The notes beneath the pieces were generated by a model. The model was given only the letters and a program-made list of their open reading frames with translations, had not been told where the DNA came from and ran no database searches. A stretch of 64,000 nucleotides of DNA from Candidatus Zhuqueibacterota bacterium (GTDB lineage: Bacteria > Zhuqueibacterota > Zhuqueibacteria > Residuimicrobiales > Oceaniaggregativiventaceae): positions 1 through 64,000 of the forward strand of contig WJMF01000154.1 of the NCBI GenBank assembly GCA_014728085.1. Direction: 5' to 3'. Of the stretch, positions 21,687-53,736 are shown piece by piece. A program made the position numbers and the translations under genes. Within the stretch, counting starts at the first letter, position 1; the number at the start of each line of letters is the position of its first letter.

Positions 21687-22814
21687 CTATACACTGACAA
21701 CCGTTTTACCTTCTTTAACAATATATACTTTCTGCCTTTGATCGTTGATTTCGTTTTTCATAACATTCAGATCAAAGGTTGTACCGGTTATGAACATTTG
21801 GCTTGATGAAGAAAAAAGAACCAGCGCTTCCTTGACCCGCTCGATATCCAATTCCGAATAAAGATCATCCAGGAGCAAAATGGGTGACATTGAGGTTCTT
21901 TTTTGCAAGAGATTCGCTTCTGCAGCCTTTAGGCTGACCAGAGCGCTTTTATGTTCACCTCGCGATCCATAGCGTCGAAGATCTTTGTTATCTATATAAA
22001 AAACAAATTCATCCCGCTGAGGCCCTATTAAAGATGTACCTTGAAATTTTTCCTTTGCGTAATAATTTTCGCATTTTGTACGAAAATTAGCAATACTCTT
22101 TTCGCGATCCGGGCAAATTTCAACATCGGGCCTGTAGGCTATGCGAAAATCAGCACGGGATAGCGATATTTGACGGTAATAGGGTTTTATATACTCATTT
22201 ATCTCTTCCACAGCCTTATGCCTGGCCATGTTCAGCAAATATCCTTTCTGAATCAGCTGTTCTGTCCACACCTCGAGCTGTGGATGATGATTTCGAGACG
22301 GATGTTTGGAAATTTGCGACAGAATAAAATTGCGCTGTTTCAATATTTTTTCATATTCTTTCAAATGCTGCAGATAGACAGTTGAACATTGACACAAAAG
22401 AATATTAAAAAATCTTCGCCGCTGAGCCGGAGGACCATTGGTAATAGAATGATCATCTGCGGATAAAATAATTACCGGAAATTGTCCGATCAGTCGGGAC
22501 AGGGGTAACAGCCGCTTGTTATTGCTCTTATAAACTTTGCCTTCTTTTTTGCTGTAGCTTAGTGCATTTTTAATATCTAAATCATTCCGATCGAACCATC
22601 CCTCAAGATAGTACTGATCCCCCTGTAAGGGAATAAGGTCGGAGTCATCTCTGCTTTTAAAACTGCGCGCCAAACACAGACAGTATATCGACTCGAGAAT
22701 ATTTGTTTTACCTTGGCCATTATCGCCAAAAAAATAATTTTTTTGGCGATCGAATTCGAGTTTAAGATCTGAAAGATTGCGGAACGCATGGATATGCAGC
22801 GATTTTAGAATCAT
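21687..22814 (-). CDS. recF: DNA replication and repair protein RecF
   Basis: SMC-like ABC ATPase acting in the RecFOR pathway, loading RecA at single-strand gaps. The 375 residues include the start MILKSLHIHAFRNL, Walker A GDNGQGKTNILESIY, the signature-type segment GSRGEHKSALVSLK, and Walker B LLLDDLYSELD. Its start overlaps the dnaN stop by 4 bp, indicating translational coupling. Confidence 0.96.
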   Translation of the reverse strand: MILKSLHIHAFRNLSDLKLEFDRQKNYFFGDNGQGKTNILESIYCLCLARSFKSRDDSDLIPLQGDQYYLEGWFDRNDLDIKNALSYSKKEGKVYKSNNKRLLPLSRLIGQFPVIILSADDHSITNGPPAQRRRFFNILLCQCSTVYLQHLKEYEKILKQRNFILSQISKHPSRNHHPQLEVWTEQLIQKGYLLNMARHKAVEEINEYIKPYYRQISLSRADFRIAYRPDVEICPDREKSIANFRTKCENYYAKEKFQGTSLIGPQRDEFVFYIDNKDLRRYGSRGEHKSALVSLKAAEANLLQKRTSMSPILLLDDLYSELDIERVKEALVLFSSSSQMFITGTTFDLNVMKNEINDQRQKVYIVKEGKTVVSV

Positions 22815-24004
22815 TCTTCGGTTTCAGTTTCCGTCGCTTCCGTTTCTTCCTCTTCTGCTTCGTCTGTACTTTCACCAGTTTCTTCATTCAGTCGAATCGG
22901 CATTAACAACATAATATGATTCTCATTTTCATTTTGTTCGGCTGGATAGATAATGGCTGAACTCAGACTATCTTTGACTTCAAAAATCACGTCTTCATGT
23001 TCTATATGTCTCAGAACATCCATTAAATAATTTGAATTATAACCGATATGAAGGGATTCATCGGTAAAAGAGGCATCAATGGTCTCCTTGCCCTCGGCGC
23101 CAAATTCAATATCTTCAGAACGAATGGTCATTTGATTTTTACTGATAATCAACCTCACCTGATGCGTGAGTGAGCTTGAAAAAATGGAAACCCGGCGCAG
23201 GGTTGAAATAAATAAATCCTTGTTGACCTGTAATTTTTGGTTATTATCTTTGGGAATAACGCGGTCATAATTCGGATACGTACCGTTGATCAATTTGGAA
23301 TAAATGACGCTTTTATCCATATTGAAAACGATATGATCTTCACCGATACGAATGGAGATGCTTTCCTGCTTTTCCGGATCTGCGTTTCTCAAAAGCAGAT
23401 TCAGAGTTTTTGTCGGGATGATCATATTTTTTTGTAAATCCTCCGGCCCTTCAAAATCAGACAGGATGATCTTAGACAAACGGTGTCCGTCTGTGGCGAC
23501 AAAACGCAATTCATTGGCGAGCATTTCCATGTTGATTCCGGTCAGGGCAGGACGCAATTCATCCATAGAAACGGCAAAAATAGTTTGATTTGTCATTCTG
23601 ACCAAAACATCGGTTGCCATATCAAACTCAAAGCCATCCTCTTCCACATTCACTTTGGGAAAATCTTCTTTTGGTTGAGTGGAAATTTTGTACTCGCCTT
23701 TTTCGGTTTTTAAAACCAGTTTATTTCCTGATTCGGTATACAGGGTTAGGGGAATATCCGGTAATTCCCGAACGATATCCGCCAGAATTTTAGCAGGCAC
23801 AGCCACTGTACCATCCTCTGTTCCGTCAACCTCGATCAATGTTTTGATGGAAATTTCGAGATCAGTACCCATAAGGGATAACTGATTACCATCCAAATCA
23901 AGCAAAATACAGGTTAAAACGGAAATGGTGGTTTTTTGCGGTACAACACCAATTACTTTGTTCAAGGAATCGTGAAAAACAGATTTTGAAATTGAAAAAT
24001 TCAT
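22811..24004 (-). CDS. dnaN: DNA polymerase III beta subunit (sliding clamp)
   Basis: Ring-forming processivity clamp, about 397 residues. The ATG at 24004 is preferred over 24019, because the five extra codons of the longer frame contain the GGGAGGA ribosome binding site. Three clamp domains are visible, for example FSISKSVFHDSLNKVIGVV at the start, ATDGHRLSK in the middle and IMLLMPIRL as the usual C-terminal end. An odd Glu/Thr-rich acidic tail of about 26 residues follows this normal end and would extend from the partner-binding face. The position between dnaA and recF is canonical. Confidence 0.96.
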   Translation of the reverse strand: MNFSISKSVFHDSLNKVIGVVPQKTTISVLTCILLDLDGNQLSLMGTDLEISIKTLIEVDGTEDGTVAVPAKILADIVRELPDIPLTLYTESGNKLVLKTEKGEYKISTQPKEDFPKVNVEEDGFEFDMATDVLVRMTNQTIFAVSMDELRPALTGINMEMLANELRFVATDGHRLSKIILSDFEGPEDLQKNMIIPTKTLNLLLRNADPEKQESISIRIGEDHIVFNMDKSVIYSKLINGTYPNYDRVIPKDNNQKLQVNKDLFISTLRRVSIFSSSLTHQVRLIISKNQMTIRSEDIEFGAEGKETIDASFTDESLHIGYNSNYLMDVLRHIEHEDVIFEVKDSLSSAIIYPAEQNENENHIMLLMPIRLNEETGESTDEAEEEETEATETETEE

Positions 24005-24064
24005 AAAACTTCCTCCCATGGGATCATAAACCAGAAATTAGACAAATCAAAGAAAATTTTCAAG

Positions 24065-24319
24065 TACTTTATATCTATATAATATATTTAAAAAAAGAGT
24101 AATAGATATAGAAGCTGTGGATATGTTGAAAACATGTAAAAAAATGATATATCTTGTTGTTTTTTCTTGTTAAAAATTATTTTTTAATCAACATTTATAT
24201 GTGAATGAACTGTTGGTAACATGCCTTTTTTACACAACATTATTTAAAGCATTAATGTTTGGTGGATAAAGAGCCACTTTTCCACAAGTTTTATACACTT
24301 TATCAACTCTTTATTCACA
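24065..24319. other. Probable replication origin core in the dnaA-dnaN gap
   Basis: The 315 bp between dnaN and dnaA hold four DnaA-box-like nonamers, each one base off TTATCCACA: 24116-24124 (minus), 24261-24269 (minus), 24278-24286 (plus) and 24311-24319 (plus). The box at 24116 is followed, reading on the minus strand towards dnaN, by a short GC step (24112-24115) and then a DnaA-trio-like run (plus-strand TAATAGATATAG at 24100-24111). A nearly pure A/T stretch comes next (24067-24098). That order (box, GC, trios, AT-rich) is the basal unwinding arrangement described for Bacillus subtilis, in the same dnaA-dnaN gap. Function is inferred. Confidence 0.65.
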
Positions 24320-25775: not shown

Positions 25776-25945
25776 TTATCCACAAAAAAGACACTTATCC
25801 ACACAACCCCCAAAAAACAAAAACACAAAACAAATAACTGTAAAATAGTAAGTTAAAAAAGGCGGGAAAACGGAGTTATCAACACAAGAAAAAATGAGAT
25901 AAAGTTCATTTTAAAATGGTTAAACATAAAGTAAAGTTATCCACA
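25776..25945 (+). other. DnaA-box cluster upstream of dnaA (second origin subregion)
   Basis: The 447 bp between dnaA and rpmH contain no gene. They hold three perfect DnaA boxes TTATCCACA on the plus strand (25776-25784, 25795-25803, 25937-25945) and one near-match TTATCAACA (25876-25884). A GC cluster (GGCGGG, 25861-25866) and TAGTAAG (25846-25852) lie beside the near-match. The rest, especially 25970-26095, is very AT-rich. The dnaA promoter and the rpmH promoter should also lie here, but I could not assign hexamers with confidence. Together with the dnaA-dnaN boxes this suggests a bipartite oriC around dnaA. Confidence 0.8.
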
Positions 25946-52174: not shown

Positions 52175-53299
52175 ATGATTGAACAAGATTATTATGAAAT
52201 ATTGGGGGTCAAAAGAGACGCTTCAGAAATGGAAATTAAAAAGGCCTATCGCAAAAAGGCCATGGAGTATCATCCAGACCGGAACCCCGACGATGAGGCC
52301 GCCGAGGATCGTTTCAAGCAGGTCGGCGAGGCTTATTCGGTATTGTCAAACCCCCAAAAGCGGCGCCAATACGACCAGTTCGGCAAATCCGGAATGCGCG
52401 GAGCGGGAGGGTTTGGTGCCGGAACCGGCGGGTTTGATCCCTTTGATATTTTTCGCGAGGTTTTTGGCGGTGGATTCGGCGATATTTTTGGCATGGGAGG
52501 AACTTCGGGCCGCCGCAGTAGAGTTCAGCGCGGTTCGGACCTGCAGATTCGTTTGAAACTCACCCTCGAAGAAATTGCCGAGGGTGTTTTAAAGAAAATT
52601 AAAATCAAGAGATATAACCGATGTGAAACCTGTTCAGGAAGCGGTGCGAGTCCTGGAACAGGTCACACAACCTGTTCAACCTGCCATGGACGCGGTGAGG
52701 TTGCTTATCGACAGGGATTTTTTACTGTCAGTCAAGCTTGTCCGGCCTGTAAGGGCGAAGGAAAGACGATCGAAAAGCCCTGCAACGACTGCGGGGGTGA
52801 CGGCCGTATCCGGGGCGAGACAACGGTGGAAGTACAGGTTCCGCCCGGCGTTTCACAGGGCCAGTATTTAACCCTGCAAAACACCGGCAATGCCGGGCCT
52901 CGTGGGGGACCCCACGGTGATGTAATTGTCTTAATTGAAGAGTTACCGCACAAGTACTTTGAGCGACACGGTGATGATTTGATTTATACATTGCATCTTG
53001 GTTTTACCCAGATGATTCTGGGAGATGAAGTACAGGTTCCGACGTTGACCGGTAAAGCAAAAATAACGATTGCACCCGGCACCCCAAATGACAAGATTCT
53101 GCGCATGCGAGGAAAAGGCATTCCGCATCTGGATCGCGGGGGGGCAGGAGATGAACTGATACGCGTATCTGTTTTTATACCCGCAAAAGTGGATCAGAAA
53201 GAAAAGAAACTCCTTCGAGAGTTATCACAATATGAGACCATGTATCCTCAAAAAGGCGAAAAAGGATTTTTTGAAAGGATTAAAGAGGCTTTTAGTTGA
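52175..53299 (+). CDS. dnaJ: Chaperone protein DnaJ
   Basis: Full-length type I J-protein, 374 residues. The J domain (about 1-70) carries the HPD motif in [13 protein letters not shown] Gly/Phe region follows (about 76-115). The zinc domain has four CxxCxGxG units: [24 protein letters not shown] and CNDCGGDG. The C-terminal substrate-binding domains include [17 protein letters not shown] and [10 protein letters not shown]. All parts are intact. The next gene begins 2 bp after the stop. Confidence 0.97.
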
Positions 53300-53301
53300 T
53301 C

Positions 53302-53736
53302 ATGCTCGGTTTTTCTAAACAAGAACAGCGATTGTTGTTGTTCCTGTTGTTTGCGTTTCTTGTAGGGTTGGTAGCAAAACAGATAAAGAATCAACAGGAC
53401 AAAAAGCCGAAGCTGTCCTGGGAAGAACGATATTCCGCGTTTTATCAGACATTTACGGAGAAATCTCGGGCGCAAGAGAAAGCAAACGTTTTTCCTGAAA
53501 CGACAGCCGGACAAAAATCCGATCTTAAGAAAGCATTGATCGGTAGGATCAACATCAATGCGGCGACCGGCGAACAATTACAGATTTTGCCGAGAATTGG
53601 TCCGTCAATGTCTCAGCGCATTATCCAATATCGGCGAGAACACGGTCCCTTCACTTCTATCGATGCTATTAAAAAAGTAAAGGGTATCGGTGATAAAACG
53701 TTTGAAAAAATTAAATCTCAAATAACCATTGATTAG
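53302..53736 (+). CDS. ComEA-like membrane-anchored helix-hairpin-helix protein
   Basis: The protein is about 144 residues from the ATG at 53302. One N-terminal transmembrane helix (about 9-26) precedes a charged linker. The C-terminal ComEA-type double HhH domain (about 80-144) shows INATGEQLQILPRIGPSMSQRI (in two parts), IIQYRREHGPFTSID and the closing KVKGIGDKTFEKIKSQI. ComEA binds incoming DNA in natural transformation, but this family is also found in proteins of unknown role. It directly follows dnaJ and precedes a PilM/PilNO-like locus, which makes a pilus or DNA-uptake link attractive but unproven. Confidence 0.82.
   Translation: MLGFSKQEQRLLLFLLFAFLVGLVAKQIKNQQDKKPKLSWEERYSAFYQTFTEKSRAQEKANVFPETTAGQKSDLKKALIGRININAATGEQLQILPRIGPSMSQRIIQYRREHGPFTSIDAIKKVKGIGDKTFEKIKSQITID

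Follow-up and report, generated by a model that had tools for sequence, protein, structure and literature searches.

In Bacillus subtilis, the basal unwinding system (BUS) of incC, made up of DnaA-boxes 6/7, a spacer and DnaA-trios, lies between dnaA and dnaN (PMC6669920). The BUS has been shown in Gram-negative species as well, and changes of the equivalent ISM and arginine-finger residues of DnaA abolished unwinding in the species tested (PMC8287927). A bipartite origin has also been described in H. pylori (PMC4285127). The known non-Bacillota origins used here for comparison have a DnaA-box and trios in the same way as the present locus, in a lineage unrelated to it, and their DnaAs unwound DNA with ADP too. 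In Escherichia coli, oriC stands apart from dnaA, and its BUS score was reported to be relatively weak (PMC8287927).

The window, meaning the whole 64-kb stretch of DNA that was analysed, contains a gap between dnaA and dnaN that shares its location with the B. subtilis BUS (PMC6669920) and resembles it in the tandem boxes, the short G/C-rich spacer, the CTA-type trios and the A/T-rich DNA that follows. Distal and proximal box groups and a second box cluster upstream of dnaA are further points of likeness, and the layout matches the bipartite origins of B. subtilis and H. pylori (PMC4285127). Unlike B. subtilis, the window has weaker boxes, one off-pattern trio and a Bacteroidetes-like dnaN promoter motif that ends the A/T tract. 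On the comparative evidence below, the gap is very probably that half of a bipartite chromosomal origin which carries the DUE, and it would act as a Bacillus-type BUS (probability roughly 0.92). The mechanism is not new, the window being a further case of the published BUS already known in Gram-negatives. What is new is comparative: the cassette appears to be separable and able to leave dnaA together with the origin while its fine structure is kept. The window also provides one well-supported case of a BUS origin in an FCB-like lineage that is uncultured, with its parts placed at base level.

Organization of the dnaA-dnaN gap

On the minus strand of the window lie gyrA, gyrB, a small ORF, recF, dnaN and dnaA, and on the plus strand rnpA, yidC, mnmE and mnmG, with mnmE identified from its position and synteny. 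The start of dnaN was set at the ATG of MNFSISK, which comes just after GGAGG, because the ATG of a longer ORF (to 24019) precedes this ribosome-binding site. Counted up to that start codon, the gap covers 24005-24319. On the minus strand, it runs from the distal boxes beside dnaA through weaker middle boxes to the box pair, spacer and trios, located about 130 nt ahead of the dnaN start codon, and then into the A/T tract (Table 1).

The core of the cassette reads, 5' to 3' on the minus strand, TTTTCAAC, ATATCCACA, GCTT, CTA TAT CTA TTA CTC TTT and TTTTAAATATATTATATAGATATAAAG, or without breaks TTTTCAACATATCCACA-GCTT-CTATATCTATTA-CTCTTT followed by the A/T tract. An earlier note on this DNA had described a box, a GC step, trio repeats and an A/T tract in this order, and all of them are present within the gap, as are the three near-consensus boxes that it placed beside dnaA (one mismatch each; Table 1). 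It had overlooked the upstream box TTTTCAACA, however; TTTTCAACATATCCACA (24132-24116, minus strand) is formed by two DnaA boxes that are offset by 8 bp and so overlap, and what is conserved as a unit is this tandem. The same note called the box one base off. The mismatch in ATATCCACA is real, but it is normal for the family and can hardly count as a defect, since the A in question is the base common to both boxes and is found in 37 of 44 relatives.

Where a BUS is defined by a box with at most two mismatches, preferably in a tandem pair, the window has ATATCCACA with one mismatch and TTTTCAACA with two, overlapping by 1 base. For the spacer, for which 0-16 bp are allowed, homology gives 4 nt, and the published rule gives 10 nt when the uninterrupted run CTA TTA CTC TTT TTT alone is counted. 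At least three consecutive 3'-NAN-5' trios (consensus 3'-GAT-5') are expected, and a run of five was found that starts at the third trio. One of the four trios (ATA) was rightly noted before as off pattern; it is the second, wrong at its middle position, and in the aligned register it interrupts a longer run.

Table 1. Coordinates of genes, DnaA boxes and other elements around the dnaA-dnaN gap of the window
Feature	Position	Strand	Remarks
dnaN	22811-24004	minus	start at the ATG of MNFSISK
Probable dnaN promoter, CTTGAAA-N17-TAATTT	24035-24064	minus	ends the A/T tract; outside the BUS
A/T tract (putative unwinding region)	24065-24099	minus	
DnaA-trio block, CTA TAT CTA TTA	24100-24111	minus	second trio off pattern; CTC, TTT continue the frame
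Spacer, GCTT	24112-24115	minus	4 nt
Downstream box of the pair, ATATCCACA	24116-24124	minus	1 mismatch; one base common with the upstream box
Upstream box of the pair, TTTTCAACA	24124-24132	minus	2 mismatches to TTATCCACA; 8-bp offset pair kept in relatives
Weaker intermediate boxes	24185-24236		24185-24193, 24200-24208, 24211-24219, 24228-24236; 2 mismatches each
Distal box cluster	24261-24319	both	beside dnaA
Distal box, TTATCCACC	24261-24269	minus	1 mismatch
Distal box, TTTTCCACA	24278-24286	plus	1 mismatch
Distal box, TTATACACT	24291-24299	plus	
Distal box, TTATCAACT	24300-24308	plus	
Distal box, TTATTCACA	24311-24319	plus	1 mismatch
dnaA	24320-25669	minus	449 aa
Second box cluster, upstream of dnaA	25776-25945	plus	
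Perfect boxes, TTATCCACA	25776-25784, 25795-25803, 25937-25945	plus	
One-mismatch box, TTATCAACA	25876-25884	plus	

Significance and conservation of the box-spacer-trio element

For 47 genomes, that of the window and 46 others of its class, either the dnaA-dnaN gap or the matching cassette was extracted. From 36 relatives, with the whole family of the window excluded, we derived a position matrix that spans the box pair, the spacer and four trios (33 positions). Loci L033, L035-L037, L039, L045 and L048, which belong to distant families, were left out of the matrix because the element was, or may have been, wrongly placed in them by the tandem-box finder; most of these remain in the 44-row column counts, which are therefore slightly conservative. 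The window site scored 36.8 bits, and no other place in the 64 kb scored above 5.0. With the same matrix, the best score was 18.6 among 60 dinucleotide-shuffled windows and 15.8 among 5000 shuffled gaps. A consensus pattern with up to three mismatches had a single match in the 5.19-Mb genome, at the dnaA-dnaN gap, and its reversed control had no match there. A search of the 22 genomes of the order with up to two mismatches allowed gave exactly one match in 14 of them and no match of the control pattern in any; in G020 (86% complete), neither cassette pattern matched. The gap furthermore holds four DnaA boxes with no more than one mismatch, where dinucleotide shuffling predicts 0.14 and the highest number among 1000 shuffles was 3. 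As evidence by itself, the published rule for BUS searches was tried and set aside as non-discriminating, being satisfied at 110 places in the window.

Conservation of the box-GC-trio order among relatives had been predicted, and order and spacing are indeed kept in f1 (the window's family), in f2 and f3, which belong to its order, and in most other families of the class. Comparison of 44 relatives showed that the box pair, the 4-nt spacer and the CTA trios are conserved, with box columns of about 0.9-2.0 bits each and a spacer that is G/C-rich but variable (GCCC, GCAT, GGCC). The trio blocks of the three f1 relatives read CTA CTA CTA TTA, CTA TAA CTA TAT and CTA CTA CTA CTA, and the broken second trio is common to the window and G001. 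In Bacillus, Planococcus, Paenibacillus and Clostridium, whose loci were found by DnaA similarity, the register is the same, with an 8-bp distance between the boxes and 4 nt before CTACTA or CTATTA.

By itself, the trio block of the window is a modest signal. It scored 8.1 bits, the weakest of the blocks compared (11.8-15.8 in f1 and f4), with p of about 0.002 against random 12-mers of local composition and about 0.01 against permutations of its own letters. These values and the one bad trio leave some room for a real box cluster followed by a chance A/T pattern, but this is very improbable in view of the relatives. The block stands at the conserved spacing, and its first trio is near-invariant among the 44 relatives, with the middle T in 42; 12 of the relatives lack this T at trio 2, and 21 lack it at trio 3. 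The third-position A of trios 1-4 was counted in 38, 41, 35 and 30 of them, and past the third or fourth trio the signal dwindles into the A/T background.

DnaA and the proposed opening of the gap

The DnaA of the window retains the ssDNA-binding isoleucines I190 and I193 and the arginine finger R264 (Bacillus numbering), and I190 (ISM) and R264 are present in all 28 aligned relatives as well. In a DnaA tree, the class grouped with the rows of Latescibacterota, Calditrichota and Bacteroidota and away from those of Bacillota and Acidobacteriota, which agrees with the FCB-like character ascribed to it earlier. A DnaA search of named relatives gave distant matches only, the best of them, a MAG, at 58% identity.

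The proposal that the same basal unwinding mechanism operates here as in Bacillus is well supported by the conserved order and spacing, by co-location with the skew switch in relatives and by the conserved DnaA residues, and it probably holds. Sequence-level support covers the parts, their order, spacing and conservation, their uniqueness in the genome and the co-location with the skew switch in relatives; binding, oligomerisation, opening and helicase loading we infer. DnaA domain IV would bind the overlapping box pair, supplied by the distal box cluster beside dnaA. An ATP-dependent AAA+ oligomer would reach over the 4-nt spacer onto the trios of the plus strand (3'-GAT ATA GAT AAT-5'), the predicted ssDNA-binding strand, and would stretch it, opening the A/T tract towards dnaN, where the helicase could then be loaded.

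Probable relocation of the cassette in family f4

In f4, a sister family in the order of the window, the six genomes with dnaN beside dnaA have a dnaA-dnaN gap of just 80-130 bp, in which no box under two mismatches and no trio run was found. The cassette was located elsewhere (L144-L151, and contig C1 of G006, L231-L244). It lies 17 kb from dnaA in G017, 94 kb in G006 and 111 kb in G010, the only three f4 genomes with both on one contig, the assemblies being drafts; in G012, G014, G016, G018, G019 and G021, it lies on contigs or stretches that have no dnaA or dnaN in the part examined. Eight relocated cassettes score 37.0-49.3 bits, all eight being in the matrix training set too, and that of G006, matched only by a loosened pattern (2 mismatches), is the weakest of the relocated sites. 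The left flank is of two main types: G006, G016, G018, G019 and G021 have a carbamoyltransferase-SxtJ-like pair, and G010, G012 and G014 a dGTPase-like HD-domain phosphohydrolase. The right flank is variable.

Two synteny blocks are recognised in f4, one near dnaA (gyrA-gyrB-recF-dnaN-dnaA) and the other consisting of yidC-mnmE-mnmG and the genes that follow, about 50 kb of the right side of the window. The cassette is some 6-20 kb from yidC in G010, G006, G016 and G017. Relative to the yidC block, the dnaA block of G017 is inverted, so that the move is not explained by a simple inversion that took the gap with it; the cassette itself shifted relative to both dnaA and dnaN. The eight f4 rows of the DnaA tree form a group (support 93/96) that is sister to f1 and f2, and f3, with its cassette directly before dnaN, seems to keep the position in the gap. 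Given this sister relationship, and the cassette being in the gap in most other families of the class, its position in f4 is most simply read as derived. It is likely that, within one order, the whole BUS cassette left the gap as a unit, while dnaA, dnaN, the dnaN promoter and the upstream cluster stayed together elsewhere. The literature yielded general statements only on a relocation of the f4 type.

GC skew and the box cluster upstream of dnaA

GC skew was computed locally, per contig and not for a whole chromosome, the window's genome being in 244 contigs. An origin at the gap is not refuted by the skew, which flips in this region of the 82-kb contig; the cumulative minimum of this noisy contig lies at 31.7 kb, 7.6 kb off the BUS at 24.1 kb. 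The f1 member G002 is consistent with it, the flip falling between 60 and 100 kb and the BUS at 67.6 kb. The skew switch of f4 is clearer and follows the cassette and not dnaA. In G016, the cumulative minimum is at 53,068 and the cassette at 53,471; in G006, they are at 121 kb and 111 kb, and dnaA (17 kb) belongs to an arm that is negative throughout; and in G010, the cassette (174 kb) falls inside a flat minimum of about 80-190 kb, and dnaA (285 kb) lies beyond it, where the arm is positive. The skew of G017 is too noisy to tell the cassette from dnaA, 17 kb apart. Because the switch accompanies the relocated cassette, the cassette is probably the origin core.

The cluster upstream of dnaA lay outside the finding of the earlier note and is stronger than the gap boxes, with three perfect boxes against none. 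As a second cluster beyond dnaA, which a bipartite oriC should have, it holds four boxes with at most one mismatch (0.18 expected), and such clusters were observed in 14 of 14 loci examined of f1, f2 and f4. With an A/T-rich stretch between it and dnaA, it could be thought the real opening site, the gap boxes being accessory. We consider this very unlikely, for the best box-trio score beside those boxes is at most 3.2 bits against 36.8 in the gap, and the f4 clusters remain with dnaA while the skew switch follows the moved cassette, so that an upstream cluster alone is no mark of the origin. With the gap kept as the opening site, the upstream cluster would be the second half of a bipartite origin and/or serve dnaA autoregulation.

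The promoter-like motif before dnaN

In 38 of 45 genomes, the last 115 nt ahead of dnaN contain the motif TTG-N17-20-TANNTT, where 4.0 would be expected from shuffling, and we take it to resemble the Bacteroidetes -33/-7 promoter. It is still ahead of dnaN in all six of the short f4 gaps examined, and CTTG[AT] was found beside none of the eight relocated cassettes tested; the element is therefore separate from the cassette and, in the window, only borders on the A/T tract. A DnaA-controlled dnaN promoter in place of an origin, which the frequency of the motif and its contact with the A/T tract might suggest, is the least credible reading of the boxes and the tract, given this separability in f4 and a skew switch that accompanies boxes and trios.

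Comparison with E. coli

The f4 origin, like oriC of E. coli, would be apart from dnaA, on the yidC-mnmE-mnmG side. Unlike E. coli (PMC8287927), the relocated cassettes keep strong box-trio signals. If the relocation is true, f4 amounts to a natural experiment: the origin would be defined by the cassette alone, and its departure from dnaA would have left the trio mechanism unweakened, unlike the case proposed for E. coli. This suggests that the loss of BUS signal in E. coli was no necessary result of oriC leaving dnaA. Comparison of sister families can in this way tell the origin core from its usual companions, such as dnaA-proximal boxes and the dnaN promoter.

Additional observations

A family of small proteins (about 200 aa, with a motif like ILIAEFxYARETA) recurs near the f4 cassette, at L149:7162-7773, L151:3181-3804 and in similar ORFs, and had no Pfam match. 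In L007 and L008 (G012 and G020), no dnaN follows dnaA in the stretch examined, and the dnaA-dnaN pair may be broken in this f4 subgroup. In G007 of family f5 (L212, contig C525:18-44), the cassette stands at a contig end behind the apparent end of an unrelated coding sequence that is not dnaA; the f5 origin may also have moved, or the f4 event may be common to f5.
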